A stretch of DNA of 64,000 nucleotides from Prostheceraeus crozeri (taxonomy: Eukaryota > Platyhelminthes > Polycladida > Euryleptidae): the NCBI GenBank assembly GCA_907163375.1, contig CAJQUW010006829.1:154114-218113 (forward strand), given 5' to 3'. Positions 23,019-41,195 of the stretch are shown in pieces; position 1 is the first letter of the stretch; every line of letters starts with the position of its first letter. The notes under the pieces were generated by a model, which did no database searches, was not told where the DNA came from, and worked only from the letters and a program-made list of their open reading frames with translations. The position numbers and the translations under genes were made by a program.

Positions 23019-23032
23019 TCGCGTTAGAGGGT

Positions 23033-23068: not shown

Positions 23069-23071
23069 ATC

Positions 23072-23338: not shown

Positions 23339-23349
23339 GATGACGTTAC

Positions 23350-23494
23350 TCCCGAGAACGAACCATCGGCTCTCTTAAGGGCCACCATGGGGCAAGACAT
23401 GATAGAACCTCCTCGCGGTTTGCCCTGGGCAGTCTTCGGACTGGCGAATACTATCATTAAGTTGAATCTGCTATCAGTCAACTTGAACGTTGCA
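23350..23494 (+). repeat. 3'-end cassette, copy 2
   Basis: Second copy of the 145-bp module, beginning 12 nt after the stop of the 88-residue gene. Near-identity between copies suggests a recent duplication or gene conversion. Confidence 0.85.
23368..23383 (+). promoter_or_regulatory. Histone-type 3' stem-loop, copy 2
   Basis: The same 16-nt GGCTCTCTTAAGGGCC, followed by ACC and, after a short spacer, the purine-rich 'GGGGCAAGACATGA'. It lies 30 nt after a stop codon, the usual distance in histone genes. Stem-loop-binding protein and U7 snRNP would be the expected readers. Confidence 0.8.
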
Positions 23495-23495
23495 A

Positions 23496-23939: not shown

Positions 23940-24086
23940 CGCCCATATGAAATGTTTTAAGATTTACAAGTTAGACTAAGCGTGCTACTATTTCCAAATG
24001 AAAATGTATACATGGTTAAATCATCCACTGAAGCCCCGTTCAAGTAAGTCAGTATGAAAGCAAAGATAATACGAAATAAAAATTTA

Positions 24087-24536: not shown

Positions 24537-24587
24537 GTTGACTGTGAATAATAACTTTGAAATGTTTTCTAATTCTTAAGTATCAAC

Positions 24588-24665
24588 AAGCAACCAATCA
24601 GAATGAACAGCCAATGAATGATGAATACGAAAGTATATATGTAAAGTGACATTCGTGTCATTTCA
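24588..24665 (+). promoter_or_regulatory. Polymerase promoter, possibly bidirectional
   Basis: Two CCAAT boxes (caACCAATcag near 24,592 and caGCCAATgaa near 24,610) precede TATATATG (24,634-24,641) and TCATTTCA (24,658-24,665). CCAAT boxes in either orientation could also serve the divergent 149-residue gene. Confidence 0.55.
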
Positions 24666-24793
24666 CTCTGTCTTTGTGGCATATAAGTGAAGTGTTCTCT
24701 GGCGAATTCTATATTTGAGGCGTACAAGTGAACTGCTCTCTCGTGAAGTCTCTATCTTGTTGAAGTATCAACCTTAAACTCGATTTCGTTGAA

Positions 24794-24863
24794 ATGGTAA
24801 GTTGAAAATTTCTTCACTCATCTCCCTCAAACGTGTGGCTAATAGCATCTTCCTCAATTTCAG
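24794..24863 (+). other. ATG-only first exon end plus 67-nt intron
   Basis: ATG at 24,794-24,796 is followed directly by the donor GTAAGT. The acceptor 'cctcaatttcag' ends at 24,863, and the next exon begins GTATCAACTTCATC. The minus-strand gene at the other end has the same design (ATG|GTAAGT, 68-nt intron). Here the downstream frame meets a stop before reaching the polymerase frame, so another intron or a mutation must lie between. Confidence 0.5.
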
Positions 24864-24966
24864 GTATCAACTTCATCACCAACACCCTCCTTCTCGAGGA
24901 AAGTTTAGAGTTGTTGAGTCAAAGTAGGTTGTAACAATACACTGAGACTTGAACAGAGATGATAGA

Positions 24967-27900
24967 ATGATTTCTCTTTCAGGTGATGTGAGTTCCAGCT
25001 CAGGACTCTCGCGACAAGGCAACGAGTGGGAATGTGCCGACTGCGGACATATGTTTGCAAGGAAGCACAGTCTCCTTCGACACATCAAACAACGTGTGTG
25101 TCAACGCAAAGCGGCGTCAATCTCCGGAGGTGAAGTTGATTCTGACGATGACATCTCCTTTCCTTGCGATTTGTGCCCTCTTTCTTTTGATAGTCACTTT
25201 CAGCGATCTTCGCACAGACTTCAACACACGCATGCAAATGATCACTACACCAACGGTACCTCTACCATCTCCCTCATTGATGTTTCACACAATAATTTAG
25301 TACGCGACTACTGCATGGAGTCCAATACTCAAATAGTAGATTTTCCTGAGTGGCTCCTTCAAAATTCTAACATTATCGAAGCGCTCTTCAACAATTTAGA
25401 CAATTTTAGAATGAAGGCGCTCATCTACCTCAAACTAAAATATATTAAGATAGATTTTCAAACGGGTCAAGTGACGGAGAGAATACAGTTTCATGTTCCT
25501 TCCTCTTCCGCAACTGAAGTTGTAGACTGCGAGTCTTGGCTAAATTTTCACATTCAATGTTTAAAATCAAATGTAGATAAATTCAATCAACGCGACAGCG
25601 CTCTCATTTTTGATGGTGTGGACTCAGTCATATTCAAAATTTCCCTATTAGAAAGTCATGCAGCTCGAGGCACATTTAAACTACCAAAAACGTTGTATAA
25701 TAAGAAAGCTGTCATCAATGTCGATTGTAAATCACAGTGTTTCAAATATGCAGTCCTATCCGTCCTTCACTATAATGATATCAACGCGAATCGAAATCAT
25801 ACCTATAGCTATAGACAGTGGGAGGATGAACTAGACTTTGAAGGTTGTGATAGTAACAACATGAAAATCAAAGATGTAGAAACGTTCGAAAAACATAATA
25901 ATATTAAAATTGTCGTTCACGTGTGGGAGAAGGGGTTGAAGGGTGCCCGCTATAATTCACGTTCAACTTGTCATGAACGTGTAGTCAACCTCTTATTAGT
26001 AAAACAAGATGATAGCGAGGAATGGCACTACTGTGGTATTCCCAAAATCTCTCGCTTGTACACTCACTTGGGGCACTCTAAAAGAGGTGAACATTTTGTA
26101 TGCGACCGCTGCATCCGCTCCTTTTGGAGTAAAGATAAATTTGAAACTCACTATGGTGCAAGCGAGGTAAACTACAAATGGAACGCATGCCCAAAGATAA
26201 AATATTTTCACATAGGGATAATGGTGACGAATTAAGTCCCCTGCGTGTCATTTACGCAGACATAGAATGCTACATTGATGATATCATCCAAAAGCCAGCA
26301 GCCATATCCTGCTATGAAGTATGGCATGACCACTTTAGGAATAGACAAAACAAAATGCATACTTGGCAAGGTGAAGATTGCATTTCAAAATTTCTAGAAT
26401 TTCTCGATAAAGCTGCTAAATTTCAACAATCATATGATTCCCAATTGCAGCGTAAGTCACTACATATGTCAGATGAAGACAAACAAAAATTTGAAAGTTG
26501 CACATCCTGTCCTAAATGTCATAAAACGTTTGATGACGATAAAATTAAGAAAGTGCGTGATCATGATCACATCACTGGTAAATTTAGAAACGCACTCTGC
26601 TCCAAATGTAACTTTTCACTTAGGTTGAGACGTCGTGTACTACCCGTCATTTTTCATAACTTTAAGGGCTATGACAGTCATATGCTCATAAAAGGAGGGT
26701 TGAGCCAGATGAAATCGTGGCAGTTTAATGTAATAGCACAAACGAGAGAAAATTCATGGCAATGACAGCGAAAGTACCAGTAGATAAAACTAAAGAAAAT
26801 AAGACATTCTTCTTCGAAATAAAATTTTTAGATTCATTTCAATTCATGTCAGCGTCACTAGCTTCTCTCGTTCGTAATCTCAAGTTTCTTCCCCATAGTC
26901 AAACTTTGAAGAAACACTATCCAAACTTAACGGATGAAATAATCACTCGCAAAGGAGTCTTTCCTTATGCGTATTTTAGCTCAATGTCTAAACTAAATGA
27001 AACAACCCTTCCTTCCATTGACAAATTCCAAAACGATTTGACGGGTGAAGATTGTCCAGTATAGGACTATGAACATGCTCAAGAGGCATGGTTAAAATTT
27101 GATTGTAAAACGTTTGGCGATTATATGATCGCTTACTTAGAATTAGATGTCATTTTGCTGGCTGATGTCTTTCAGGAATTTCGACGAGTGGCATTAGAAG
27201 AAGACAAATTAGATCCTGTCCACTTTGTCAGTCTGCCAGCCATGTCCTTTAAATCAGCCTTTAAAATGACTGGTGAGACCATTCATCTCCTACAAGACCC
27301 GGAGATGTATAATATATTTGAGCGCGGAATACGCGGTGGTCTCACATTTGTAAATAAACATCATATAAAATCTGAAACAGTAGGTGATGATCATATCCAC
27401 CTGAAGTACTATGACCAAAATAATTTATATGGCAGTTCACTGTCTAAACCACAACCTCATTCCGAGTTTAGTTGGTTAAATCAAGATGAGCTTGAGTATT
27501 ACTCCAACCCTTCAAACATACTGAAGATTCCAGATGAAGGTGATTGGGGATATTATTTTGAAGTGGATTTGATTTATCCAAATAGCATTAAAAATAAAAC
27601 TTCTGATTTCCCACTCGCACCTGAATCTGGTGAAGTGACTGAAGATATGTTTTCACCATTCATGTCACAATTTCATAATAACTTAACAGAGTGTGGACAG
27701 CCAAGGTACAAACCATGCCGCAAACTTTTACTCACCCAATATGATAAGAAAAATTATCTCGTACACTTCTGCATATTAAAATTCTATTTAGAAATGGGCA
27801 TGCTTCTAAAGTCAGTTCACCGCATTATCAAATTTAGACAGAAAGCCTTCCTGAAACCCTACATAGATAGTAACAGTCAAAAACGTGCACTCGCCCAAAA

Positions 27901-28762
27901 TAATTTTGAAAACGATTTTTATAAATATAAGAATAACAGTCTTTTCGGAAAGACCATGGAGGATGTTAGAAAACGTATGAACTACAAACTAGTCGTTGAT
28001 GAACAAAAATATCACAAATTGACCTCATCATCTCTTTTCATTGATAGAGACATCATCGATGAGGATCTTGTAGGTGTTAAAATGATAAAATCTGAAGTTG
28101 AGTTGTGCAAACCCATCTATATTGGGCAAGCCGATTTAGATTATTCCAAGCTTGAAATGTATCAACTCTTCTACAACATATTAAAACCATGCCCTCTCGT
28201 AAAAGAGGTTCGCTTGCTGGGTGGTGATACAGATAGTTTCTTTTTAGGAATTACCACTCAAAAAGATTTAAATTTTAATGAAGTAGGCAAGTCATTAGAA
28301 AAATATTTCGACACATCTAACTACAATCCCACTCATCCACTCTATTCCATACAGAATAAAGCCAAACTTGGTTGTTTTAAGGATGAAACAGCAGGAAAGG
28401 AAATAGATGAAATGATTCTCCTCTGTCCTAAAATGTATTCCATGAAATTAAAAGAATGTGCAGATAGTATTAAGCGTGCTAAAGGTATATCAAAATCCAT
28501 TGTTCATAAAATGAAACATCGGTCCTATAAGAAGGCCTATAAAAATAAAACTATAACGTTTGTCAATATGACAATCTTAAAATCTCAAGTTCATACTGTG
28601 AAAACCCACACGTTCAAGAAACGAGCGCTTTCAGCATGGGAGGATAAGAGGTGTTGGATAAGACATAACACATCTCTTCCACATGGACATCCTGACACAA
28701 ACATACCTCCACCCAAAAGAATAAAACTAACGCTACCACATTCAGGAGATGTATTGACATAA
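24967..28762 (+). pseudogene. polB: Protein-primed family B DNA polymerase (broken)
   Basis: Polinton polymerase. The first part (to ~26,200) has C2H2-type zinc-finger motifs ('CADCGHMFARKHSLLRH', 'CDLCPLSFDSH') and a later CxxC...H. Next are exonuclease motifs: Exo I 'YADIEC' near 26,250, Exo II 'FHNFKGYDSH' near 26,660 and Exo III 'YLELDVILLAD' near 27,140. The polymerase palm follows: motif A 'YYDQNNLYGSSLS' (~27,410), motif B 'NNSLFGKTM' (~27,935) and motif C 'GGDTDSFFLG' (~28,225). It is broken by two frameshifts (about 26,190-26,210 and 26,745-26,760) and an in-frame TAG at 27,062-27,064. All catalytic motifs survive, so inactivation looks recent. The true N-terminus is probably spliced. 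Confidence 0.93.
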
Positions 28763-28794
28763 TCAACTTTAACTCAGTATTTTGATGTTGCTTT

Positions 28795-28890
28795 TTGTAG
28801 ATATACATGGTTGTTTTATGTATCGCATGAGATCGTTTCTTCCTTGTGAATATATGCCCACAGTCAGCCCATTCCCCCTTTATCTGTGAA
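28795..28890 (-). pseudogene. Antisense relic of the polymerase zinc-finger segment
   Basis: The minus strand reads 'EWADCGHIFTRKKRSHAIHK', clearly related at both protein and DNA level to the finger 'WECADCGHMFARKHSLLRHI' coded near 25,030-25,085 on the plus strand. About 60-70 bp are shared. It is too short to be a gene. Confidence 0.55.
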
Positions 28891-28912
28891 AAGAATTTTT
28901 CATACACATATT

Positions 28913-28926
28913 TTTATTTCAATAAA
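28913..28926. terminator. Back-to-back poly(A) signals
   Basis: TTTATT (28,913-28,918; AATAAA on the minus strand) and AATAAA (28,921-28,926, plus) sit between the convergent polymerase and LPSN genes. Confidence 0.6.
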
Positions 28927-28941
28927 CATATCACAATGACT

Positions 28942-30462
28942 TCACTTTGTTTTCCGAAACACTAAAGTTACGAGGGATTTAGTATCTTTCACATGGATGC
29001 ACTCTTGTAAACCATTGGTAATTTTGATAGCAATAGAGGGTATAGTTTGTTTGACGACGGGATGATAGAAAATAGATTCAAACATCTGCTCGACTATTCC
29101 ATATGAAGCGTCTTTATCATGAATGAAATCACGTAAAATGTATTCTTTTTTCTCACCAACAGAAATAGGAAGAATCAAATCACTTTGAATGTAAAGGTGC
29201 TGTTCATGTTTATCAAGTGTCATTGGTGTTTCTATACCAATCGTATGCGCAGCAGTAAACACAGTTTGTAGCATTGAAAAACCAAAGAGTTTTTTCAAAT
29301 TTTTACTCAACTGACATTGAATGTCATCACCCAGTTTCAGAACAACGCGATGATTTTCAATTGAAAACGAAATGTGGTGTGTCTTTACATCATATTTACT
29401 TTTCATCACATGCTTCAACTTCTGTTGTATATAAGGATTTACTACATGAATGAAGCTTTCAACTGTATGATATAGACGCGGCATTATATTGATAGCAACT
29501 TTAGATTCTTCATAAGACTGGTAAATTTTCTTGATGCGATCACCATAGATGCCCACCCACCATTCATCATTAACTGAATCAGCTTTAGTGTGATATTCAT
29601 GAGAAGCATACACCACACCGCTTCCAATAATAGGTGTATAATGTCTTACAAAATGACGCAAGGTTGGAGAGAAATAAACTGTAAGTTTGTCATTATATTT
29701 CTGAATAACCAACTTATTTTTGTCCGCCATAATTTTCTCTCCATACTTCTTACACACAGTCTCATTCCATCGTTTTACTAACTCAATAAGTGATAAAGGT
29801 TGAACACCACGCTTTTTCAAAATGATGCGTTCTTCACATTCTACAACATCTTCATCAAATATTTTAAATCTATAATGAAATTTGTTGATTCGATTTGAAT
29901 AAACTTTTTTAACATTTGCAGTAGCAATTGACATTAGATGTAGTCCATGACCAAAACCGAGATGTGGATAGAATTCATTATCCAACCTCAGTGTAAGACC
30001 TCTAGTAAAAGAATGAAAGCGAAGGAACTGTCTCCTACTCCAATGATAGATAGTAAACTCATAAGCTTTCTGATTTTTATTCTTCATGATGGAAGTATTA
30101 CCACTGTTGAATGCCTTAATAATTTTCTCATTCCCAAATGGTTCATAATAATCTGATTTTATCTGAATCCATTCATAGTTCCACTTTCCATCTGATGTTA
30201 AATTGTATGGGAACTGGAATGCATTATTCATCGTTATTCCATCATGGGTGCGAGGAGTCAATATCATTTCTTCCAAATAATTCACATTCTGAATATTGCT
30301 ATCATAGCAAATACTAGAAACGCCAACCTCCCATTCACCTTCTAAATGTAGTGGGCGATTTAATTCTACTCGATAGTGTGATGGTTTATTTTTGGGAAAT
30401 TTATTCATAGAAGCATTACTGGGTAAGTAGATTAGAAACGAGTCCTTATTTTCACTTTCCAT
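28942..30462 (-). CDS. Conserved Polinton protein, LPSN family, intact
   Basis: A 506-residue protein from the ATG at 30,462. The N-terminus 'FLIYLPSNASMNKFPKNKPS' followed by 'LEGEWEVGV' is the hallmark of a family found next to capsid genes in animal Polintons and adintovirus-like elements (from memory). It is beta-rich with no enzyme motif, so a virion role such as vertex, fibre or minor capsid is likely but unproven. A related, broken copy lies directly upstream at 30,503-31,860 in the same orientation, 40 bp away. This copy is free of stops. Confidence 0.75.
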   Translation of the reverse strand: MESENKDSFLIYLPSNASMNKFPKNKPSHYRVELNRPLHLEGEWEVGVSSICYDSNIQNVNYLEEMILTPRTHDGITMNNAFQFPYNLTSDGKWNYEWIQIKSDYYEPFGNEKIIKAFNSGNTSIMKNKNQKAYEFTIYHWSRRQFLRFHSFTRGLTLRLDNEFYPHLGFGHGLHLMSIATANVKKVYSNRINKFHYRFKIFDEDVVECEERIILKKRGVQPLSLIELVKRWNETVCKKYGEKIMADKNKLVIQKYNDKLTVYFSPTLRHFVRHYTPIIGSGVVYASHEYHTKADSVNDEWWVGIYGDRIKKIYQSYEESKVAINIMPRLYHTVESFIHVVNPYIQQKLKHVMKSKYDVKTHHISFSIENHRVVLKLGDDIQCQLSKNLKKLFGFSMLQTVFTAAHTIGIETPMTLDKHEQHLYIQSDLILPISVGEKKEYILRDFIHDKDASYGIVEQMFESIFYHPVVKQTIPSIAIKITNGLQECIHVKDTKSLVTLVFRKTK

Positions 30463-30502
30463 ATTATTCACATTGGAAAATATATATTAGCATACTTTTG
30501 CA

Positions 30503-31860
30503 TTAACTCTTCATTCGGAAATGGAGTGTGATACTTGTCACAGCATCTTTATGAAAAGGAATCAACGCACCAGCATCGTCATAAATTGCAATATCAATTT
30601 GTGGGATGTAGTTTGATTTAGTATAATGCACTTTCTTGAAAGTATGCTCAGATAAAATACTGCAGCTTTTTGGCTGGTATGGTATCATTGCTAGCAATGG
30701 AGCTTCAACATCTCCCACACGTACATCTTCACCAATATTGGAATATATCTGAAAATAGCTAATACGACGCGATAGCGACATGTCTGCGCTAGCTTTGGTT
30801 ACAGTACCACTTTTAAAGATATTTTGATCAAAACCTAAAATGTCCATTAGAGTTTTATCCATAATTAGTTCAATACCTATTCCACTTATAGTGAGAGACA
30901 AAGTACCTTCTTTTTCAGAAAATAAAATATGTTGCTCATTAATCACTTCATTTAAATAATCTACAACCAATTTAACTGAAGTAATGATGCGAGGCATCAA
31001 CACTCTTGTTTCATGTAAGATACCACCTAAAGGCTCTACACACTTTCTGTATAAAGATACGGTCCATTCTGTATCAAATTGATTTGACCTTTCACATGGT
31101 AAATGTTGCATATCAAATTTTCCATGAACAGCTGCAGAATGATGTCGCAAGAACTGATGAAAATCTTTTGAACAAACTAATACTAGATCATCATCATTTA
31201 ATTTACTTATTGCAATATGATTAGATGATTTGATATAAGTCAATGTTGCCACTTGTTTACCATCAACTCGAAGGAGATAATTAAATTTCTTCAATAATGT
31301 TTCAGGAGTCATGTTTGTCTTTCTTGGCTTAATCACAATCTTCTTCACCAACTTCTTTTCATTTCTTGGAATAAGATCTACATAATAAGCTTCCTCTCGA
31401 TATATTAACTGTTTATAACCACTTATGTGGTAATTAACGTTAAAATTATCATAGCCTGTTAAGGCGCTAGCGAGGTAACCTAAATCATTTCTTAAACTTG
31501 GACTTAAACCAACAATCCAATCTTTCTCAACTACATGATGTACATAAGTATGATCATCATTGTGCGGAGTAAATTGGACAATATGTTTACTCGCTTTATT
31601 CAGGAAATCATATTAAACTTTTTACATAATAAGAGATCTTTCTTTGGCCACTGTGGAATGTACACTCGGCAGCCCTTTTCACATTGGTAAGCAGCTGTAC
31701 GTCTCATATTAATAGTCATCACCTCATGATCAAAAGTATAGACACAGTTGCTATAAACAAGTTGAGTGACACCCACTTCCCAATTTCCATTTAGCTGTTG
31801 TGTATGATCAATGGGAGTAGAAAAGAGTGCGATTACTAGCAAATCTATTTGCGGCCGCAT
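30503..31860 (-). pseudogene. LPSN-family paralogue with a frameshift
   Basis: The ATG at 31,860 opens a frame with 'LNGNWEVGVTQLVYSN', the family's N-terminal signature (the LPSN tip itself is degraded). A frameshift near 31,600 moves the reading frame, which then stays open through about 370 codons to 'ITLHFR' near the stop, the typical C-terminus of the family ('IPF...ITLHFR'). It diverges by 63 bp from the PC4-like gene. Confidence 0.7.
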
Positions 31861-31923
31861 TGCTAAGCAAAATATGATAAAACGACATTTTTATATTGCT
31901 GATCTGTGACTTTGCATAACATC
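31861..31923. promoter_or_regulatory. 63-bp divergent promoter region
   Basis: Only 63 bp separate the ATGs of the minus-strand LPSN paralogue and the plus-strand PC4-like gene. The space is A/T-rich with a central 'tttttatattgc'. Both transcripts must start here or inside the neighbouring genes. Confidence 0.4.
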
Positions 31924-32280
31924 ATGAAGACTTGGATTTTGGACTCTCTACAATATATCAGAGTTGATCGTGATGGAAACGTACATTTCTAAAATTCTCA
32001 TGGTCATACATCAAGAGGTATTACATTAACATGGCGACAATTTGTCAACCTCAATGATATCATGAGGGATTTGGAATATTTTGAAACATTAAAATTCATC
32101 TCCTTGGGTGATCAAGTTTGGCTTCAACATTATAGAAATGAAATTCAAATCTGCCATTCTCATTCCGCAAACTGTTTCTCATTTCGCAAATACAATTGGG
32201 AGAAGTATAGAAGATACATACATCGCTCCATCATGACATTTATTCGTCGTGAGTTCATCGCCCTACTATGCAAATCTTAA
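31924..32280 (+). pseudogene. Possible PC4-like protein 1 (one stop)
   Basis: 118 codons from the ATG at 31,924, interrupted by TAA at 31,990-31,992. It appears to contain two repeats of 'strands then helix': 'RGITLTWRQFVNLNDIM' ends the first and 'SFRKYNWEKYRRYIHRSI' the second. The 'G-I-(S/T)-L-T-xx-(Q/W)-(W/F)' pattern before a helix recalls the single-stranded-DNA-binding PC4/p15 coactivator fold. This is a fold-level guess. A clear paralogue follows at 32,303 with the same spacing. Confidence 0.4.
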
Positions 32281-32302
32281 TCAGACATGACTACCACACA
32301 TC

Positions 32303-32953
32303 ATGAGTTGGAAATTAGATTCTCTACAACGTATTGAAACGGATCATGATCGAAACGTCTATTTCAAAGATTCAACTGGAAATGTGAGAAGAGAGTTTGC
32401 TTTATCTTATCGTCATTTTCAGTCTCTACATCATATCATGAAGGATTTGAAATACTTCTACATGAAAAGACATTCACGTATTGGAAATCGCATCTGGCTG
32501 CGCGTCAACAATCGGCGAATTCAACTCTATCATTCCCAACTCCATACTAACTTCACATTTCATCAAGGTAGTTGGGAGAAGCATAAAAGGAAGGTACATC
32601 GCTCAATTTACTCATTCTGTCATCATGAAGCGCCATCGCTACACCATCGTCAACATTCTCCGTCGCTTCAGACTCTACACCAAAATCGATCTCACAACAT
32701 TACACCAACACCTTCCAAACAGCAAGTATTACCCGGGCCGACCTCAAATGTTAGTGGTGAAGATGAACAATTCACGGAATCTTCAACTCTTCCCAAATGG
32801 GACTGTACAGATTCTCGGCGCCCTTTCTCATTCATCGGCGCAGTCAATGCGCTTAGAGCTACAAAGACTACTACGTCGGATATGGAAGAGGGAGAGGTGT
32901 GTGATGTCGAATCTGACTGTGGACAATATGGTGATCTCTACTCAATTGAGTGA
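32303..32953 (+). CDS. Possible PC4-like protein 2
   Basis: It starts 'MSWKLDSLQRIETDHDRNVY' and is related along its first ~108 residues to the upstream gene (LDSLQ, then FALSYRHFQSLHHIMKDLKYF, then IGNRIWLRVNNRRIQL, then WEKHKRKVHRSI). No stop interrupts it. After residue ~108 the frame continues for another ~108 Ser/Thr/His-rich residues that overlap the TBP-like gene in a different frame. Since the paralogue ends at 118, this tail is probably due to loss of the original stop, unless it is true overprinting. Confidence 0.5.
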   Translation: MSWKLDSLQRIETDHDRNVYFKDSTGNVRREFALSYRHFQSLHHIMKDLKYFYMKRHSRIGNRIWLRVNNRRIQLYHSQLHTNFTFHQGSWEKHKRKVHRSIYSFCHHEAPSLHHRQHSPSLQTLHQNRSHNITPTPSKQQVLPGPTSNVSGEDEQFTESSTLPKWDCTDSRRPFSFIGAVNALRATKTTTSDMEEGEVCDVESDCGQYGDLYSIE

Positions 32954-33170
32954 CAGTCTATCATTTTTGAAGATCCGTACCAGCAGTTACAGTTTGTGTT
33001 ATGAACCCGAACTTTTTCCTGCAGCTCTCATTAGTTGTTGGTTACCTGTGCATGTGGCAATCTTTCATGATAGTAAAGTGATCATTACTGGATTAAAATC
33101 TCATGTACAAGCAAATGCGATCCTAGACTATCTCATCGAGTATGTGCGTACCCAGCGGATTGTAAAATAA
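32625..33170 (+). CDS. TATA-binding-protein-like factor
   Basis: An intact 181-residue protein, the size of the conserved TBP core, with two direct repeats. Repeat 1 (about 7-90): 'YTIVNILRRFRLYTKIDL', then 'NSKYYPGRPQMLVVKM', then 'LQLFPNGTVQILGA'. Repeat 2 (about 96-178): 'NLTVDNMVIS', then 'YSLCYEPELFPAALI', then 'VAIFHDSKVIITGLK'. Three of the four DNA-kinking phenylalanines of TBP are in place (F56, F131, F147); the fourth position is Q41. The TFIIB-contacting stirrup YEPELFP of cellular TBP is kept exactly (residues 126-132). It lies on the plus strand after the PC4-like genes and its stop overlaps a poly(A) signal. It could direct transcription from the element's TATA promoters. Not a copied host exon in any obvious way, as most residues differ from animal TBP. 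Confidence 0.85.
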   Translation: MKRHRYTIVNILRRFRLYTKIDLTTLHQHLPNSKYYPGRPQMLVVKMNNSRNLQLFPNGTVQILGALSHSSAQSMRLELQRLLRRIWKRERCVMSNLTVDNMVISTQLSDSLSFLKIRTSSYSLCYEPELFPAALISCWLPVHVAIFHDSKVIITGLKSHVQANAILDYLIEYVRTQRIVK

Positions 33171-33201
33171 AAAACAATTTTTCCAACATGATGTTTTTAT
33201 T
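33166..33201. terminator. Poly(A) signals overlapping both convergent stop codons
   Basis: AATAAA at 33,166-33,171 contains the TAA stop of the TBP-like gene. On the other strand AATAAA (33,201-33,196) contains the TAA stop of the protease gene. Only 26 bp lie between the two coding regions. Confidence 0.7.
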
Positions 33202-33658
33202 TCAAATCATGATAGAACTTACAAATCATTTTTTCATTAGAGGATGGATTACATGAAAAGTTTTGAATAACAGATACAAATCGAGATACATGTAAACGTT
33301 TTAAGATGAAGTACAGTACAAAAGCACCACACGTTGATGAAAGTGGATGTTGTAGTATGCGTTTATTTCGCTGATATTGACGCGTATGTTTTCTCAACCA
33401 CTGCTGTGTTGGTATATTTGGAGGTTGAGCAAGAGAGTCAAATAGTTCACCACGTCGGTCTTCTCCAATAAAGATCGCTTTCCAATGCTCACCGCCTAAA
33501 TTCTGCGAATGAGTGTTTAGCACAATAAAGATGGGATAGCGATTTACTACAGGTGGTAAGGTATCGAGTGAATAAACATTATCGAAAGCTTTCAACGTCG
33601 CTTCGTCTGCATTACGCTGCACTTTAGTCTTAATATCGTCAGCAGTCAACCAACTCAT
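33197..33658 (-). CDS. Adenain-type cysteine protease, intact
   Basis: 153 residues of the Ulp1/adenovirus-protease fold used to mature virion proteins. The catalytic set is visible: H58 in 'GGEHWKAIFI', D74 in 'GELFDSLAQPP', Q103, and C110 in 'SSTCGAFVLYFI'. Spacing and size suit the Polinton protease. Its ATG overlaps the capsid gene's stop (TAATG). Likely substrates are the basic core and minor capsid proteins nearby, which have Gly-Gly motifs. Confidence 0.9.
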   Translation of the reverse strand: MSWLTADDIKTKVQRNADEATLKAFDNVYSLDTLPPVVNRYPIFIVLNTHSQNLGGEHWKAIFIGEDRRGELFDSLAQPPNIPTQQWLRKHTRQYQRNKRILQHPLSSTCGAFVLYFILKRLHVSRFVSVIQNFSCNPSSNEKMICKFYHDLK

Positions 33659-34923
33659 TAACGATTATACTGAAGAATCACGTCACGATACTTTGAAATT
33701 TCAATATTTGAATCGAAGACTGCATAAATTAATACATTGATCGTCTCAGGTAGTGTTCTTTTGAACGTCAAATCCAAACGAATATTATGAGGCACGTTCG
33801 CTTGACGATAGGGGGCACTAATATCGCTGTCAGCAGTCAAATCAAATGCATAAATAGTATATCCACTCTTAAACTCTTTCATAGTGAGTCCGTTGGTGTC
33901 ATCCGTATTGTAAAAGCCAAAGACATCCATAAAATCAACATAACTGCGCATAAATTGATCCGCAGCAAAATCTGATTTGTAGGGTGGACCAGGATGACTC
34001 ACACCATTTACACGTAAAGCAATTTCACTTAACTGATTGTTTTTAAAATTGAAAGGATTCTTCTTTATATTACCATTAAATGCATCATTTTCAACCATTG
34101 CCACCATGAGGAGCTTCGGTGCTTCCGATGGAAAGAGGCCATCTTTCATGAAACTCTTTTGATCTTTTGGAATTGTAAAGGTAAGAAGCTTTGTATGCTG
34201 AATGGGGTAAATGGCATTTTGGCGGTTAAGACCTTCAGCATGTCCTCTAATGACACTTGGATTCGGTACTGCTCGACGAATGTAAAGTGCAATATCTTCC
34301 ACATGAATTCTAAAATTGTCAACTTTAGCAAATGCATTCAGCGCAAATTCAGGCTTATTCAATGTCAGCTTGAGTCGCATGCTGGTATTACAGAGTAAAA
34401 ACTTTGACTGTCTAAAGAAGTCTAAATTCAGCGGACCATATAGCTGACATACTCTACTATCACATCGCTTTACAAAGCCACTGTTTGTTTCAACATCAAA
34501 TTTTCCTGCTTCATCTCTGTACCATCCCATGGCTTACATATGACTTTTTTGTGCTGCTGGATGAAACTGTGATACATGATTGAAATATGATTTATAGGGA
34601 TAATCGCTTTGACCACCTTCCACCTGCTGCTCTCCAATCGTTAGAGAAACATCATGAAGTAATGTAGTCAATGGTAAATTGTTCAGTCCAACTTTATGTG
34701 TATCGTCAATAGCAGTTACATCTGCTTGCTGAATTCTAAACCTCAAATCAACCATCGCATAACTCAAATCTATGTAGTCATCACTACCACCAGGAATAAC
34801 AAATTCAATGGGGCCAGCATTCTCAGCTGTTCAAGGATGATAATCTACAATACTTGAACTAAGAATATCTGTCTGTATGGCTTGTTGATCAAACAAACAA
34901 AAACCGGAAGTTTTACACTCCAT
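33658..34923 (-). pseudogene. Major capsid protein, double jelly-roll (two stops)
   Basis: One continuous frame of 421 codons interrupted by TGA at 34,831-34,833 and TAA at 34,534-34,536, with no frameshift. The N-terminal part includes 'GPIEFVIPGGSDDYIDL' followed by 'DLRFRI'. The C-terminal half has 'LYGPLNLDFFRQSKFLL', 'MRLKLTLNKPEFAL', 'NAIYPIQHTKLL' and 'MVENDAFNG', motifs of the Maverick capsid protein seen in animal genomes (the F54H12.2-like family). It lies between the basic minor capsid gene (2-bp gap) and the protease (overlap). The protein forms the capsid lattice in this lineage; here it cannot be made full length without readthrough. Confidence 0.88.
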
Positions 34924-34925
34924 GA

Positions 34926-35381
34926 TTAGAAGTTATGGCAGCGTCGTCGTTTAGCGCCTGATGAATGATTAGAGCCTCTGCGACATTTGCGTGAATGCCT
35001 TTTGACTGAAGATCGCACCTTACCAGCTCCGCGATGTTTCCTCCTTCCTTTATTCATTCGTTTAGGTGATTTCTTTCCTTGAGTAACACCAGCAAAGGTC
35101 TGCTTCAATGTTTTTAAACCGCGTTCCTTCCCACGATTCAACAAACTGCTCTTAAAACTTCTACCTCTGGAAAGATCACTAGCAACATCACCAGCAAAGC
35201 CAACGGCATTACTTAAAACATTTCGTTTTAAAGATCTACCGACATTGGATACGAGAGGTGCTACAACAGATTTCAGTGCACCAAGTATGCTACCTCCACG
35301 TTGGCGGCGAGCGCCGATGTAAATTTGTCCTCCACTATTTACATAGGAGGGTCGTGAATAAAATGAGGCAGTTGGATTCAT
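34926..35381 (-). CDS. Basic minor capsid/core protein
   Basis: 151 residues. 'RRQRGGSILGALKSVVAPLV' is a basic Gly-Gly site followed by an amphipathic, membrane-active-looking helix, as in adenovirus pVI/pX-like proteins of Polintons. The C-terminal half is extremely Arg/Lys/Ser-rich, suited to DNA packing. Gly-Gly sites are candidates for cleavage by the nearby protease. Its ATG overlaps the integrase stop (ATGA) and it ends 2 bp before the capsid ATG. Confidence 0.7.
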   Translation of the reverse strand: MNPTASFYSRPSYVNSGGQIYIGARRQRGGSILGALKSVVAPLVSNVGRSLKRNVLSNAVGFAGDVASDLSRGRSFKSSLLNRGKERGLKTLKQTFAGVTQGKKSPKRMNKGRRKHRGAGKVRSSVKRHSRKCRRGSNHSSGAKRRRCHNF

Positions 35382-36289
35382 AGCTCAAACCCTAATTCAT
35401 TATCGTAATCTTTCAACTTGTAGGTGGTGGGAGAGTCTTTTTGGTTAATACTTGATACTGTAAATACCTCCTCTGTCCAATTCGGAAGGTACCCTTTAGC
35501 AAAAACACTTTTCACTTTTGAGATACGAACTTTATCACCAATTTTCACATCACTTTTGACATGAGTGGGTTTACGTTGGAATAATTCGCGCACTTTATCT
35601 ACATTGTCAGCATTTACATCTACTGGTCTAAGTCCAATAGAACGACGGATAGAGTGATTGTAGGCATGGAGTGTATCTTGTAGAACCTTTGTCCAATTTT
35701 GCGTCAAGTTGGCAGTAAAATGTCGCCACAAGCGATTTTTTAATGTGCGATTAAAACGTTCAACGAGTGCAGCTTTATAAGCACTCTTTACACTAAACAA
35801 CTCAATGTCATGCCTCTCAAATAATCTTCTCACATGCTGATTTTCAAACTCTTTTCCTTGATCACTCTGAATTCTTTTTGGAATCCGACCTTCTCGAAAA
35901 ATTGTTTGGAATGCTTTTGCTACTCCTTTCCCTTCTTTAGTTTTTAAAGGTTAAGCCCACGCATAACGCGAGAAAATATCAATGACGGTTAAAATAAAAT
36001 TATTGCCCGAGTTATGTTTTGAAATGGAGGCGACATCACACAAATCTGCCTGCCACTGTTCATCGATGTCATGAACAATATAATGGCGGGTGCGGTACTT
36101 CTTTTTCGCTTGTTTGTGGAGTGTATAGGTAGCCTGGCCCTTTAACCATCGTTTCACTTGTGATTGTGGAAGACCACTCGCTTTTGATAATTTCTTGATA
36201 GATGCAAATCCTGCCGGATGTTTTGCATCATAATAGATTGACTTCAAACGTTCAGTCGATGACGACTGACTCTTTTTTCTCCTTCTCAT
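35378..36289 (-). pseudogene. Retroviral-type integrase (one stop)
   Basis: DDE integrase that would insert the element and make the 6-bp duplication. The ATG at 36,289 ('MRRRKKSQSSST') is preferred, though the frame extends to 36,421. After a helix-turn-helix-like segment ('KKLSKASGLPQSQVKRWL') come 'QWQADLCDV' (first Asp), 'SDQGKEFEN' (second Asp) and 'LVERFNRTL' (Glu). A C-terminal SH3-like part ('GDKVRISKVKSVFAKGYLPNW') completes it. An in-frame TAA at 35,951-35,953 lies after 'IDIFSRYAWA', between the first and second Asp, so the truncated product would be inactive. The start overlaps a Cys-rich frame. Confidence 0.9.
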
Positions 36290-36467
36290 CTTTTTGTTTT
36301 CTTGCCTTTCTACATTTACAACAACTGCAGCATTTAGCTTTAGCGGTTTTGCGATCGTGTTCACATTGCTTAGGGGTTTCATTGTGAGAGCTGGCGCAGC
36401 AAGTGCAAGTGACAACGACATTCACCTCTGGCGGCTCATTACATGGCAAGCAACACATCTGCTTCAT
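36252..36467 (-). CDS. Small Cys-rich protein overlapping the integrase start
   Basis: 71 residues with CCxxC, CxCC, CEH and CCSCCKC clusters, then a Lys/Glu tail. The ATG comes one base after the stop of the upstream gene (TAA-T-ATG). It overlaps the integrase N-terminal frame by about 40 nt if integrase starts at 36,289. Cysteines (13 of 71) suggest zinc or metal binding. It could be fortuitous, but the junction spacing matches the rest of this packed block. Confidence 0.45.
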   Translation of the reverse strand: MKQMCCLPCNEPPEVNVVVTCTCCASSHNETPKQCEHDRKTAKAKCCSCCKCRKARKQKDEKEKKESVVID

Positions 36468-36468
36468 A

Positions 36469-37158
36469 TTAATAGTCTGAGAACATGTATTTCCTGGGAG
36501 GAGCTGTTTTACGTTTTCCTTTTACTAGTTTTAGTGGCGATGTAGATCTACGTCGAGTTCTTCCTCTTGTTTGCTTAGTGAGTGTGGGAGGGGATGTAGC
36601 AGGTGACGTCTTAAACCAATTTGTTGGCATTTTCATCGTCTGAAGCATTGGAGCAGTAGCCACTGTTGAATCAAGTTCTTTCAATGTCTCATTATTCAAA
36701 GCAAATTTTGGTACATGCTTTTTCAATAGTTTAAGAAAGTATGACCAACCAGGTGGAACATAGCCCTGACGGCGCTTTCTACGCGTCGCATACTGAATTG
36801 AGTCTTCATAACGTGAAGCATCAATCACTTTATTTTCATCTGTAATGATTTCTCCTCTATCATTTACATTGAGGTGGGGTTCAATACTGTTGAAAAGAGA
36901 TATGGCATGTGCGCGAGATGCTAAAGGTGTAGCAGTCGATACAGAGTCACGCATCTTATTCTTCAAGTTTTTCAATTGCTCAACAGTTTCCGATTGTAAT
37001 AATACAGCACGATGTGGATCTTTGATGTGAACATTTTGCTGATAATCTATTTCCTTCCTATACATTTGATTTGCAAGAGGTTGCTTTACTTGCTGCATGG
37101 CAGTCAATTGTACATATTCATCCTGAGGAATAACAATCATGCGAGAATAAGAACTCAT
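36469..37158 (-). CDS. Conserved Polinton protein next to the ATPase
   Basis: 229 residues, intact. The N-terminal 'MIVIPQDEYVQL' type start and a C-terminal basic Ser/Thr/Pro tail are seen in a protein commonly next to the ATPase in animal Polintons (from memory). A central 'GYVPPGWSYFLKLLKK' looks like a short globular or adaptor segment. The ATG overlaps the ATPase stop (ATGA). A structural or scaffolding role is possible; no enzymatic motif. Confidence 0.6.
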   Translation of the reverse strand: MSSYSRMIVIPQDEYVQLTAMQQVKQPLANQMYRKEIDYQQNVHIKDPHRAVLLQSETVEQLKNLKNKMRDSVSTATPLASRAHAISLFNSIEPHLNVNDRGEIITDENKVIDASRYEDSIQYATRRKRRQGYVPPGWSYFLKLLKKHVPKFALNNETLKELDSTVATAPMLQTMKMPTNWFKTSPATSPPTLTKQTRGRTRRRSTSPLKLVKGKRKTAPPRKYMFSDY

Positions 37159-37772
37159 AGTTTGTAGATAATCATGGGAGTTTTCAAAATATCACTTCGA
37201 AATCTAAATTCTTCCGGACACTCTTGCGTAAAGTCAATGAATAAGTAACCGTATGGTTTTTCAGTAGCTGCTTGAAAAATTTCAATTAAGGCTTTTGATC
37301 CTCTGGGTGCAACTTGTCGCGCTAAAATTTCAAATTGACTTTTATCTCGCGGATTCTTGAAAATAGCATAATAGTGTGTATTCAGGTTTCGTGTACGAGC
37401 TTCTTTTCCATCAGGAAACAAATTTTGTGTGATATAGATGATAAAACACCTTTTATGATGTGCTGCACGAGTGAACATATCTGTAACATCTTTTGAATTC
37501 TTACTTTCTTTTAATAAATCATCCAATACAACAACATCATTAGACTGAAGTTTATCCTCTGCAATAATTCCTTCATGTCGAATAAAGTTGCGACTTTGCA
37601 ATTCCTGAAACAGCGACGGTTGATAAATACCATAACACCAAATCACTCGATTGATAGGTTCCTTAAACAACTCCCTTCTTTTATCCAATAAATTCAGCGT
37701 GAAAACAGTTTTACCTGCATGAGATGGACCTGATACAGTCAGAACTTTATCGCATTGAAGTCTGAAATCCAT
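37155..37772 (-). CDS. A32/FtsK-type genome-packaging ATPase, intact
   Basis: 205 residues from the ATG at 37,772 (the frame is open slightly upstream). Walker A GPSHAGKT is at residues 15-22, Walker B 'VVVLDDL' with D84/D85, and a sensor-like 'YITQNLF' follows. This is the small packaging ATPase shared by Polintons, adintoviruses and virophages, which pumps DNA into capsids. The gene overlaps neither the upstream basic protein's stop region nor its partner except for the 4-nt ATGA junction downstream. Confidence 0.92.
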   Translation of the reverse strand: MDFRLQCDKVLTVSGPSHAGKTVFTLNLLDKRRELFKEPINRVIWCYGIYQPSLFQELQSRNFIRHEGIIAEDKLQSNDVVVLDDLLKESKNSKDVTDMFTRAAHHKRCFIIYITQNLFPDGKEARTRNLNTHYYAIFKNPRDKSQFEILARQVAPRGSKALIEIFQAATEKPYGYLFIDFTQECPEEFRFRSDILKTPMIIYKL

Positions 37773-37803
37773 TTTAATACTTTGAGATTCAACATTTGCA
37801 TAA

Positions 37804-38160
37804 TTAACGCTTAGAGCCAAAGATATTACCCAATAGGTTACCCACGACAGGAGCTAACATTGGAAGTATTGCTGAAAGGAAACCACCCTTTTGTGTTAGA
37901 GTTTTCCTCTTTCTTTGAAGGGTGACTTTAGGATTGGAGATGAAACGCAATTTTGTGGCATATCGCTTAAGTAACTTTCGTTGTTTTGGTGCTAATTTCT
38001 TCGTCCTCAACTTCCTCACATGAGAAATAATTTCACGAATGAATTTATCGTTAGCATGTCGTATAGCATTGTATCGCTGATTTGCTTTCATTCGTCGGAG
38101 AGCTTGAATGGCTGAAGAAAACTTTTGACTTTTACGTTTCGTCATTTTACGTTTCGCCAT
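37804..38160 (-). CDS. Basic core protein with hydrophobic Gly-Gly tail
   Basis: 118 residues, strongly Lys/Arg-rich over the first ~90. It ends 'KGGFLSAILPMLAPVVGNLL', a Gly-Gly site followed by a hydrophobic helix, as in adenovirus mu/pX-like proteins. Likely DNA-condensing and processed by the protease. Intact. Confidence 0.7.
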   Translation of the reverse strand: MAKRKMTKRKSQKFSSAIQALRRMKANQRYNAIRHANDKFIREIISHVRKLRTKKLAPKQRKLLKRYATKLRFISNPKVTLQRKRKTLTQKGGFLSAILPMLAPVVGNLLGNIFGSKR

Positions 38161-38211
38161 TTTCCGTGTTAGTCTTTGCTAAAACTTATCTTTACCACAT
38201 TTGCATAGGTA

Positions 38212-38535
38212 CTAACTATTGCGGCATAAGTGACACTCGAAATGAGCAATATCACAGTGGTTACATTTGCAAAGTTGAATGCCATTACGTATGAAACAGC
38301 GTTGACAAAAAGCATGCTTACATCTCTTGAAGATGCGCTTTTCATTTCCATCCTTTCGCTTACATACATCACAACACATAGTTTCACCGTTACTGATGTC
38401 TATAGCAAGTCTTCTTGAAGATATGAATTTTCTAGCCTTTTCTAAATAATAGACGCATGTACAGAAGGAATATACTTCGAGAGTGAGCAGACATAGCTCG
38501 AAAACCAGTTGTGCTACAATCAAGTACCACTGCAT
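38212..38535 (-). CDS. Membrane-anchored RING-finger protein
   Basis: 107 residues from the ATG at 38,535 (2 nt after the preceding gene's stop). An N-terminal hydrophobic helix ('YLIVAQLVFELCLLTLEVY') is followed by a RING-like pattern: CDVC, 12 residues, CKHAFCQRC, then CKCNHC. RING domains recruit E2 ubiquitin-conjugating enzymes, so it may be a membrane E3 ligase acting on host proteins. The last pair of ligands is less certain. Confidence 0.65.
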   Translation of the reverse strand: MQWYLIVAQLVFELCLLTLEVYSFCTCVYYLEKARKFISSRRLAIDISNGETMCCDVCKRKDGNEKRIFKRCKHAFCQRCFIRNGIQLCKCNHCDIAHFECHLCRNS

Positions 38536-38537
38536 TT

Positions 38538-38948
38538 TCAATTTTCCTTTATGGAAAGTTGAATGTGAATATCTGAAATCGCTTCAATCACTAGACTGCT
38601 GCCATGATTGTTAAATGCGTTAAGACGTTCAGCAATTTTTATCATATGTCTTTTAAAAAATTCTTCGGGGTGATCTACCACTTCCATTGAATAAGAAGCA
38701 AAATGGAAAGAGCGACTTTCCACCTCTTCCTTTCCAAAATGACTAAACTTAATTTTCGCAACTAATCGCGCCATGATAATGCTATGAGAGAATGTATTCA
38801 TTAACTCTAGAAATAGAGTGCTAGCATCATTGACCACTGCTTCGATGTCGGTCTCATCTTTATGAAAATTTATCACATAATCTTGAACAGCTCCTTTTAA
38901 ACTTTGCCTATGAAAATGTAATGTTCCGCAGTCGTTTGAGAAAGACAT
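38538..38948 (-). CDS. Conserved small Polinton protein, unknown
   Basis: 136 residues, intact. The C-terminal third ('ERLNAFNNHGSSLVIEAISD' then 'IHIQLS') matches a pattern frequent in Polinton proteins, 'hydrophobic-(D/N)-xx-xx-GS-(G/S)-(W/L)-(V/I)-(V/I/L)-E-xI', often found near polymerase or capsid genes (from memory). No catalytic motif. Confidence 0.5.
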   Translation of the reverse strand: MSFSNDCGTLHFHRQSLKGAVQDYVINFHKDETDIEAVVNDASTLFLELMNTFSHSIIMARLVAKIKFSHFGKEEVESRSFHFASYSMEVVDHPEEFFKRHMIKIAERLNAFNNHGSSLVIEAISDIHIQLSIKEN

Positions 38949-39032
38949 GATCGCCCTTTATCTAACCCATCCATTGAATGAAAACAACTCTTCTCATAGT
39001 AACATTTATTGAATAATAGTAACAAGCATGCA

Positions 39033-39563
39033 TTATAAATCAATGGTTTGAAAGAGATAAAATAGATACAGCTGGTAACTATCATACAGCGAGCAATGAT
39101 AACCATACAGGACTTTGGCAGTGCTGAGGTAAGGAGGAAAGAAGCATTGGTTATGAACGTAGCTACTACAACGAACAGACAAAATAGGAACAGACAAATC
39201 CTTAAAACGTTTCGTGACTTCATGATAATGTTGATTCACTCTACTATCCCAAGGTGGGAGCAAAATGTCATCAATGATTAGATTGGGAAATACTTTCCTC
39301 TCCTTACCAGGATTATTACAAAAGATGCGTATAACATTGAAAGCAGCTAACCATCGTTTAAAGTCAATAAGAAGAGCACTCTCACAAGAAAAGCCATAGT
39401 CTTGCAAATATTTCAGATTAAGTCCATGAATGTGTTTTCTCGCCCATTGATCAACATTGGGATCGCAGTTGGCATGTTGATGATAGACACTAACAATCTG
39501 ATATGTCCAATTGTTCATAGCAATAGCACTGAGCTCCTGTACAGGTTCACCCTCACAATCCAT
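39033..39563 (-). CDS. DEDD-type exonuclease-like protein
   Basis: 176 residues. It opens with 'MDCEGEPVQELSAIAM', the Exo I pattern (DxE followed by a strand and E-L) of DnaQ/RNase-H-fold 3'-5' exonucleases. Later 'LLIDFKRWL' and 'VRCSSYVHNQC' match a family of short invertebrate Polinton-type proteins that begin with a DxxG(F/E) strand (from memory). The second and third acidic residues are not clear by eye. Possible roles are proofreading, genome-end trimming or mRNA degradation. A minus-strand poly(A) signal lies near 39,003. Confidence 0.5.
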   Translation of the reverse strand: MDCEGEPVQELSAIAMNNWTYQIVSVYHQHANCDPNVDQWARKHIHGLNLKYLQDYGFSCESALLIDFKRWLAAFNVIRIFCNNPGKERKVFPNLIIDDILLPPWDSRVNQHYHEVTKRFKDLSVPILSVRCSSYVHNQCFFPPYLSTAKVLYGYHCSLYDSYQLYLFYLFQTIDL

Positions 39564-39615
39564 AAAAATGATAATAGAAGCCTAAAACGGAAATTTACAC
39601 ATCTAAGGAAACGTT

Positions 39616-39816
39616 CTATAACATATTACAAAATGAAGAATTACATCGATGCTTTTCACGACAAAATACACAAATGATATGATGGCAACGAAGAAGTAAA
39701 ATGTATCTAATAAGACCACGTCTACGACACTCAAAGCACATAAGCGAATTGTCATAGGGTAGAGTTAGGAAAGGACTAGTAATTCTCCTTCTTTGATTTG
39801 CGTTTTGAGGCAGCAT
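39616..39816 (-). CDS. Second small RING-like protein
   Basis: 66 residues from the ATG at 39,816. 'CFECRRRG', 13 residues, then 'CHHIICVFC', then a Cys-poor end 'CNSSFC'. This gives C-C, C-H, C-C and C-C ligand pairs of a compact RING/HC finger. It has no membrane helix, unlike the other RING protein. It overlaps the possible frameshifted tail of the next gene. Confidence 0.5.
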   Translation of the reverse strand: MLPQNANQRRRITSPFLTLPYDNSLMCFECRRRGLIRYILLLRCHHIICVFCREKHRCNSSFCNML

Positions 39817-39930
39817 TCTTCTCCGACTTGCGCTTCGTACCACTGCTGTTAAGGATTTGATCAATTATGTCGTCCACATTGGATGGTTTTGGAATATATA
39901 GGATGGATTCCATATGCATGGAGAGAGAGG

Positions 39931-40553
39931 CTATTTTATTATCCTTGTGCCGACAATATAATATAGTCCATTCACTTTGAAAAGGATATCCCAAGTACCT
40001 TCTCCGAGCTCATCACATCTGATGGGTATTGAATGATCTCCCTCCTTCTTATAGTAAGTACACCAATGTGATACCGGTAGGCAAATGTGATTACCATCCC
40101 AAATCTTTCTATAGGGAGTATCCTTGTCATCTCTCGCCTTCCACTCTTGAGCAAGAGTAGTAGGAATGTCCATATTTAATGTCACGTACTCCTCAATAAT
40201 ATCAAGTTGGCGGCGAATGTACGGACTCACGGGGATCAGTATGTAGTCCCCATACTGATTGTGCATTATCTTGACATCCGTGGAAGGGAGCATTCCCGTT
40301 TGGAGTACTACGCCATGATCGTCATAACGCAAGAGTTGTTTAAATTTACGCTGTAGTGGTGTAGGATTATGTACCTTGGTTGTTTCTTCCACTGGCCTCA
40401 GTTGTAGATGATCTGACCGTAGCGAACCTTGTAACGTTTGACCACCATTTTGTCCTACTAGTGCAGCAGATGGAGTAGATGCCTGAAAATGAAAAAAGAT
40501 TGTATTAAGTTTACGTTCAAGGGAGGAGAGGGAGGGAAGTAGCGACTTACCAT
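39931..40553 (-). CDS. Spliced right-end gene, unknown function
   Basis: Exon 1 supplies only the ATG (40,553-40,551), followed by GTAAGT. Intron 40,550-40,483 (68 nt) ends 'ttttcattttcag', and exon 2 (40,482-39,931) continues in frame 'ASTPSAALVGQNGG' into a 184-codon body. The protein has an aromatic/acidic mixed composition with 'DYILIPVSPYIRRQLDIIEE' and 'HWCTYYKK'; no family is recognised. A shifted frame (39,930-39,776) adds 'HMESILYIPKPSNVDD' and a basic nuclear-signal-like tail, so the original protein may have been longer before a frameshift. It is the outermost right-end gene. Confidence 0.6.
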
Positions 40554-40628
40554 TTTAGTTGGATAATAGAACAGGGAACTAGAGAGAGAGAGAGAAAATG
40601 TGCGTCCGTCACTCGTGTGATTCAACGA

Positions 40629-40667
40629 TGGAATGATTCTCACTGTGGAAGGCTCGCTATTTATATA
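40629..40667 (-). promoter_or_regulatory. TATA promoter of the right-end gene
   Basis: On the minus strand TATATAAA (40,667-40,660) is followed 31 nt on by TCATTCCA (40,636-40,629), matching the design of the three left-end promoters. It drives transcription leftward into the spliced gene. Confidence 0.6.
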
Positions 40668-40721
40668 GAAATGCTTGATTCTCATTGGATGATGATCCTC
40701 ATTGGACAATAACATCAAGCT

Positions 40722-41195
40722 GATTCCAAATCTGGCCTCCGTTTACCAATCCGAGCCTTTGTTCGCCCGCTGGAGCTGTTTCTTTGGAAATTCTAACTCT
40801 GTCGTTTTTCGTCAATCTCCCAAAATCTTAAATGGCGTCTCACATGTAAACGAAGAAAGATATGAACAAGCCGATTCTTTCACTGAATTTGTCTCACTCT
40901 TAGCTTTCAAACGAGCTATTGCACGACTTTCTACGATCTCTAGAACCAAAGTTGGAAGATCGGTGCCGGGAGGGGGGGGGCGTAAGCGAAACTTTATCTC
41001 TCCGATTGCGTTCAAATTCACCATACCGATGCAGAATTTCACGCTGAATCCGAATCTGGCCTCCGTTTTCCCATCCGATGCCTCGTTTTGGCGCTACAGC
41101 CCAAAACGTCCCAAATTCTAACTCTGTCGTTTTTTCGCCAATCTCCCAAATCTTAAATGGCGTTTCACATCTAAACGAAGACAGATATGAACAAG
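40722..41195. repeat. Diverged subrepeats inside the right inverted repeat
   Basis: A second repeat type with period about 320 bp, marked by 'tctggcctccgtt' at 40,731 and 41,053 and by 'cttagctttcaaacgagct'. It is related to the standard terminal unit but different, with G-tracts. Similar sequence reappears at 63.8-64.0 kb. Confidence 0.7.

Follow-up and report, generated by a model that had tools for sequence, protein, structure and literature searches.

A 64,000-nucleotide stretch of the genome of the polyclad flatworm Prostheceraeus crozeri (contig CAJQUW010006829.1, positions 154,114 to 218,113; referred to in its full length as the window) contains a Polinton element that encodes a homologue of the TATA-binding protein (TBP). 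The TBP gene recurs in four Polinton lineages of the same genome. The reading favoured here, at a probability of about 0.62, is that this Polinton-group TBP homologue serves as a virus-encoded promoter-recognition factor for the host machinery.

The gene is an open reading frame (ORF) of 181 codons plus stop that runs from ATG to TAA at 32625..33170 on the plus strand. The product matches Pfam family PF00352 twice along its length, at E 4.5e-20 and 71.7 bits (cut-off 22.9), and its predicted structure is a TBP saddle of two pseudo-symmetric lobes. When the protein was searched against the sequences in the PDB, TBPs made up 35 of the 36 distinct sequences at E ≤ 10, with E values from 7.1e-12 to 1.6e-7; the single non-TBP had E 2. 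The 181-residue ORF is thus a true TBP homologue of the PF00352 family. An initial annotation, made from the letters of the window alone, had described an intact gene with both TBP repeats and had named three findings that would speak against it, namely a missing PF00352 match, a fold lacking the saddle and a simple retrocopy of the host TBP locus; the gene and both repeats are there, and none of the three adverse findings was made.

The finer claims of that annotation also stand. The stirrup YEPELFP occupies residues 126–132, and alignment places Phe at three of the four kinking positions (Phe56, Phe131 and Phe147) and Pro40 at the fourth. The remainder of the protein lies far from animal TBP, as had been said: it is very different from the host TBP, and identity to TBPs of known structure is 19–26%. 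Because Pro occupies the first kinking position, the label ‘canonical TBP’ is barred; membership of the TBP family is untouched by this.

The assignment of the gene to a Polinton was likewise correct, since the ORF lies inside an element bounded by terminal inverted repeats (TIRs) and a target-site duplication (TSD). Long TIRs starting with AG, together with a 6-bp TSD, are a hallmark of Polintons/Mavericks. The element, 23,080 bp at 19423..42502, agrees with this rule: its TIRs begin AGTAGTAAGT, and TTTATC stands as a direct repeat on both sides (19417..19422 and 42503..42508). The portion of the left TIR that aligns to the right one (19423..20408, plus strand; right TIR at 41518..42502, minus strand) is 96% identical over 989 columns and includes part of a 288-bp tandem array.

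Which surfaces of the protein have been kept was assessed from residue counts over 62 sequences, with the acidic TFIIB positions taken from the available text of PMC7221094. Both TFIIB-contact residues of the C-terminal stirrup are acidic in 62/62, and the three kinking positions carry Phe in 62/62, 61/62 and 62/62. Asn (62/62) and Thr (61/62) of the C-terminal lobe are kept as well, and both central Asn are in place (N101 in 62/62; N10 in all 50 rows that have a residue there). The N-terminal lobe presents another picture. Its kinking position, the first of the four, is Pro in 58 of the 59 rows with a residue; the position that we take to be equivalent to yeast Val122 is Gln in 62/62, and the presumed equivalent of yeast Thr124 is Leu in 56 sequences, Met in 4 and Phe in 2. 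TFIIB- and DNA-contact positions are among the best conserved columns. Judged from these alignments, little has changed in the C-terminal lobe or in the TFIIB dock; the putative DNA face of the N-terminal lobe is altered family-wide.

Recurrence was examined in the 2.05 Gb assembly of P. crozeri. A search with the TBP gave 11,869 candidates, the best 150 of which were scored; all of these span residues 1–181 at 98–100% identity and are free of stops, which is a lower bound and does not tell how many copies are broken. When PF00352 was used instead, again with the best 150 (of 10,983 candidates) scored, three kinds of locus came up: the host TBP, divided among separate exons (C9306), a gene resembling TBP-like factor (TLF; C3829, so named from its motifs), and element copies, some with internal stops. 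The 20 stretches fetched comprised 3 host loci, 3 copies of lineage A, to which the window element belongs, 3 of lineage B and 11 of lineage C. In lineage B, TBP and protease genes remain adjacent; the TBP is 42% identical to that of the window, and the capsid-like protein mostly 51–55% (one piece 44%, others up to 60%). Lineage C TBPs are 40–44% identical in single-piece alignments of at least 150 residues, and a polB-like gene lies nearby in 11/11. The lineage D copy (L040) has a TBP of 40% identity with an internal stop, adjoining capsid-like and protease genes. The annotation had named homologues beside capsid/ATPase genes in other genomes as support; within this genome, further lineages do place the gene near protease, capsid-like and polB-like genes. 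Near-perfect palindromes were seen in two of five element stretches tested, with a polB-like gene or TBP in both orientations: one at 2459–7501 of L049 (99.0% over 5,048 columns), and one in L058 with arms of 2,963 nt at 247–3209 and 4839–7801 (99.5%).

The family extends beyond this genome. Among roughly 5.8 billion proteins searched, 61 TBP homologues were listed, each with a precomputed PF00352 assignment and 31–77% identity to the window protein over the alignment. Linkage of these to neighbouring genes was judged from equality of contig sizes between homologue lists rather than from the contigs themselves, using the 61 TBPs, the best 120 of 380 proteases and the best 120 of 200 capsid-like proteins. 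Between the lists of proteases and of capsid-like proteins, 14 sizes coincide against 1.28 expected, which indicates that the method works. Between TBP and protease lists, 6 of 61 sizes are equal where 1.26 are expected; this count lies inside the null extreme (a maximum of 7 in 20,000 runs), so the case for linkage rests on contigs above 5 kb, where four sizes are equal against 0.04 expected with jittered sizes and 20,000 runs never gave more than 2. We regard this as good if indirect support for a linkage of TBP and protease outside this genome as well.

A further property of the gene is its overlap with a second one. A 216-aa ORF at 32303..32953 on the plus strand overlaps the first TBP repeat by 329 nt in another frame. 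Lineage B (L042) has a 199-aa ORF at 1606–2205, overlapping by 308 nt counted from the second ATG of TBP, and lineage C (L044) a 209-aa ORF at 1468–2097, overlapping by 341 nt; arrangement and frame offset are common to these three copies, one from each lineage. The lineage D copy showed no long ORF across its TBP gene. When TBP codons were shuffled synonymously, the overlapping frame stayed open as far in 3, 8 and 5 of 20,000 runs (window, L042 and L044, respectively). Open-frame length was the only test used, since motifs that the lineages have in common in the C-terminal part of the overlapping ORF may be a by-product of TBP conservation. For its N-terminal part, where a PC4/Whirly-like fold may still apply, a two-sequence model was poor (predicted local distance difference test, pLDDT, score of 57.2), fold searches gave no clear match and Pfam none. 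This part has an upstream paralogue at 31924..32280 on the plus strand, with one stop in the window copy and open in L048. Gene callers that forbid long overlaps would drop one of two such genes, and this may be why the TBP has been overlooked.

The mechanism that these features suggest is as follows. The C-terminal lobe would still kink a TATA-like site in its 5' half and would dock host TFIIB, bringing host RNA polymerase II (Pol II) to the element's promoters. The N-terminal lobe, with Phe changed to Pro, Val to Gln and Thr to Leu, would read an altered 3' half-site. Promoters of the element, perhaps those of a late class, would then be read by its own factor instead of by host TBP. The TFIIB used would be a borrowed one, because no TFIIB was recognised in the ORFs scanned, because the acidic dock is kept throughout the family, and because other viral TBPs are reported mostly to come with a TFIIB of their own. 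A more specific form of this proposal is put forward tentatively and is rather doubtful as a whole: within one widespread Polinton group, the N-terminal lobe may have been rebuilt for a non-TATA half-site of the element's own (late) promoters, while the C-terminal lobe passes that site on to the TFIIB and Pol II of the host, giving a one-subunit switch that dispenses with viral RNA polymerase and TFIIB and overlaps a second viral gene.

The conserved dock also suits a different explanation, in which the protein acts as a decoy whose stirrup engages host TFIIB, or other partners of TBP, and keeps them off host promoters, without starting transcription of the element. Acidic TFIIB residues in every sequence beside a partly altered DNA surface are what a decoy might show; a pure decoy, however, would have no need of the three kinking Phe residues or of both central Asn, and the invariant Gln62 suggests a selected DNA contact. 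The decoy is unlikely, though it is the rival that fares best. A TBP fold turned to a different use, for instance in replication or packaging, and retaining its stirrup on structural grounds, is to be regarded as quite unlikely: TBP-like lobes are present in other DNA-binding proteins, but reuse fits poorly with best-conserved columns that include the TFIIB- and DNA-contact positions. Recruitment of Brf-type factors, and with them a route through Pol III or another TFIIB-family protein, is improbable for genes that are long protein-coding ORFs, presumably typical of Pol II, even though the same TBP stirrup serves both TFIIB and Brf proteins (PMC7221094, available text). The last rival, recent capture of a host TBP as a retrocopy with no role in the element, has in its favour that the ORF is intronless there, and hardly deserves credence given a host gene that is intron-split and matches human TBP at 132 of 152 core positions, an element protein that falls outside eukaryotic TBPs, and recurrence in four lineages and many other sources; the annotation had itself named a simple retrocopy as a possible undoing.

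The tree of TBPs supports this rejection. Its 60 rows comprised 26 of the family (24 of the 62 members and two further copies, one from lineage B and one from lineage C, with lineage D left out), 19 archaeal rows (17 of the 80 retained archaeal loci being taken), 11 from IMG/VR, and human TBP, Encephalitozoon TBP, host TBP and host TLF. The IMG/VR rows come from a scan with cellular TBPs that gave 12 loci, of which L072 was dropped. The 26 family rows form one group (support 100/100) on a long branch, the separate placement that the annotation had proposed to examine against host, archaeal and viral TBPs; the human, Encephalitozoon, host TBP and host TLF rows form another (100/99), apart from them, and the family also stands apart from the 19 archaeal and 11 IMG/VR rows. 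In an earlier tree, lineage D also stood on a long branch. An origin from TLF was rejected, as the single, partial TLF row groups with the eukaryotes. On the strength of tree and recurrence, the Polinton TBP gene is not a recent host copy. Given a warning from the tree program about long branches meeting, the tree names no deep donor.

Several results weigh against the promoter-factor reading. Altered N-terminal residues could also reflect loss of DNA binding. A TFIIB-like gene was not recognised among 20 other ORFs of the window scanned with Pfam, several short ORFs lying outside that scan. The TBP and capsid-like lists share 0 of 61 contig sizes among the matches listed (best 120 of 200 for the latter). 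A first look for promoter motifs (17 genes, 80 nt) was not significant, with 76 of 300 null runs reaching the observed value for 7-mers. None of 6 lineage B genes has the 8-mer ATGCAAAT in its upstream region, and no promoter motif is common to the lineages. The annotation had suggested that host TFIIB and Pol II could be redirected to TATA promoters of the element; a TATA promoter set common to its genes was not demonstrated. A second look (18 lineage A genes, 100 nt, two of the regions from copy L048) found ATGCAAA 29–69 nt upstream of the start codon in 6 of 18, and 12 of 2,000 null runs gave at least as many; the sites lie upstream of 32303, 30462, 37772 and 38160 in the window and of 4288 and 4746 in L048. 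This heptamer resembles the POU octamer, and it is a lead only, either a candidate promoter element or a POU-type octamer. Finally, pN/pS (non-synonymous over synonymous polymorphism) for lineage C TBP is 0.59, indicating mild constraint on the frame (13 rows from 12 places, L036 and L056 standing for the same place, ranked by PF00352).

Other selection data concern the integrated copies. The overlapping ORF in lineage C has a pN/pS of 1.20. Among the lineage A copies L001–L030 the TBP value is 0.07, which is biased because these copies were ranked by TBP match. In the same 30 copies, an open 216-aa ORF was counted 27 times, alongside 1 in-frame indel and 2 frameshifts, and its pN/pS, taken from 27 copies, is 0.54. 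For the protease the figures are 28 open, 1 frameshift and 1 stop, with a pN/pS of 0.41 taken from 29 copies. Integrated copies mostly decay. The deep conservation shows that the replicating element is under constraint, and nothing seen points to use by the host. A TATA-like CATAAAAGG starts 43 nt before the TBP start, within the overlapping ORF.

The element has further genes, some of them damaged in this copy. Convergent with TBP, 26 nt away, lies an adenain/Ulp1-like cysteine protease (33197..33658, minus strand; Peptidase_C48 E 0.0012, just under the cut-off). Its homologue P0211 passes that cut-off, and a three-lineage protease profile finds protease S273R in the PDB (E 8.4e-7); by these matches, the element carries the cysteine protease by which Polintons/Mavericks are recognised. 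A 290-aa capsid-like protein (33658..34530, minus strand) has homologues and is shortened in the window, listed relatives being mostly 424–427 aa; ‘major capsid protein’ is our presumption, since no library named it. A packaging-ATPase-like protein (37155..37772, minus strand) matches weakly (Pox_A32 E 0.013, PHROG ATPase E 0.0045), so that its label is partly presumed. Integrase-like pieces (35378..36421, minus strand) match rve_3 at E 0.0044, and a lineage B copy matches rve at E 0.013, both below cut-off. The polB-like region (24967..28762, plus strand), which we take to be polB from its motifs, consists of several open pieces interrupted by stops in all three frames and includes an Endonuclease VII-like match (26178–26765, plus strand; PF02945, Endonuclease_7, E 2.3e-7); its 545-aa piece matched nothing in the libraries searched. 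Searches with capsid-like and polB-like proteins gave no named family, P0063 having only a weak PHROG match of another name (E 0.0047). Of the protein-primed polB, capsid, ATPase and integrase that characterise Polintons/Mavericks, the element thus offers candidates supported by motifs and by weak matches under the cut-offs. Two minus-strand proteins without Pfam match are a 506-aa one (28942..30462; related stretches in lineages B and D) and a 269-aa one (30503..31312; related stretches in lineage B). Close to the left TIR is a 415-aa ORF at 21528–22775, with antisense open frames of 260 and 208 aa. Outside the element are an inverted repeat (3804–4097 and 5104–5397, arms about 1 kb apart) and a 513-aa ORF (44685–46226, plus strand), presumably reverse-transcriptase-like.

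Polintons probably stand close to the origin of many DNA viruses of eukaryotes. Little is known of how their genes are controlled, and a recurrent TBP is a concrete, small and assayable handle, which may explain how a small element without RNA polymerase of its own selects its own promoters. With other Polintons/Mavericks and with adintoviruses, the element shares TIRs, 6-bp TSD and protease as well as ATPase-, capsid-, integrase- and polB-like genes. IMG/VR scans with the TBP family, a capsid-like piece and a capsid-like alignment gave 0 confirmed loci, and no named viral record was reached. A term search of the main text of two Polinton papers (PMC11071308, PMC8097293) met neither TATA nor TBP. 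Where available texts hold both Polinton and TBP terms, the TBP carrier is a giant virus, a mirusvirus or a mirusvirus-like element, and a Polinton TBP was not found described in the available text of the open-access literature searched, including PMC10675990, PMC10871703, PMC7221094, PMC10132985, PMC11464507, PMC12085832 and PMC4602308.

Cellular TBPs, eukaryotic and archaeal (PF00352), have in common with the Polinton protein the two repeats, the saddle, the TFIIB stirrup and three of the four kinking Phe residues; they differ from it in that its first kinking position is Pro, two minor-groove positions of its N-terminal lobe are Gln and Leu, and its family forms a group of its own. Animal TLF/TRF2 is also distinct: host TLF reads ELH where the Polinton TBP reads ELF, and the two form no common group in the tree. 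The poxvirus factor VITF-3, which is TBP/TFIIB-like, works with a viral RNA polymerase, and its fold similarity to the Polinton TBP is at background. Nimaviruses and mirusviruses are larger viruses with other capsid systems. They too are DNA viruses of eukaryotes that have a TBP, wsv303 in the nimavirus (PMC10871703, PMC10675990, available text), and 59% of mirusvirus genomes are reported to carry one (PMC10132985, available text). Giant-virus TBP-like proteins resemble the Polinton TBP in being virus-encoded, with matches in BFVD such as Heterosigma akashiwo virus 01. Redirection of host RNA polymerase by a viral TBP is already in print for a large algal virus, Chrysochromulina parva virus BQ1, for which TBP and TFIIBs were proposed to act together (PMC12085832, available text). 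Viral TBPs are reported often to have lost the acidic TFIIB residues, about 40% keeping the first position, and almost all viruses that keep it, poxviruses excepted, have a TFIIB-like protein of their own (PMC7221094, available text). In the Polinton TBP, by contrast, both residues are acidic in all 62 sequences, and the scanned ORFs yielded no recognisable TFIIB. Viral TBP as a kind is known; to our knowledge, the Polinton carrier and the design are new, the latter combining a kept TFIIB dock, an altered N-terminal DNA face, no recognised TFIIB of its own and an overlapping gene. This is the opposite of other reported viral TBPs: the interface to host TFIIB is kept, and half of the DNA surface is altered.
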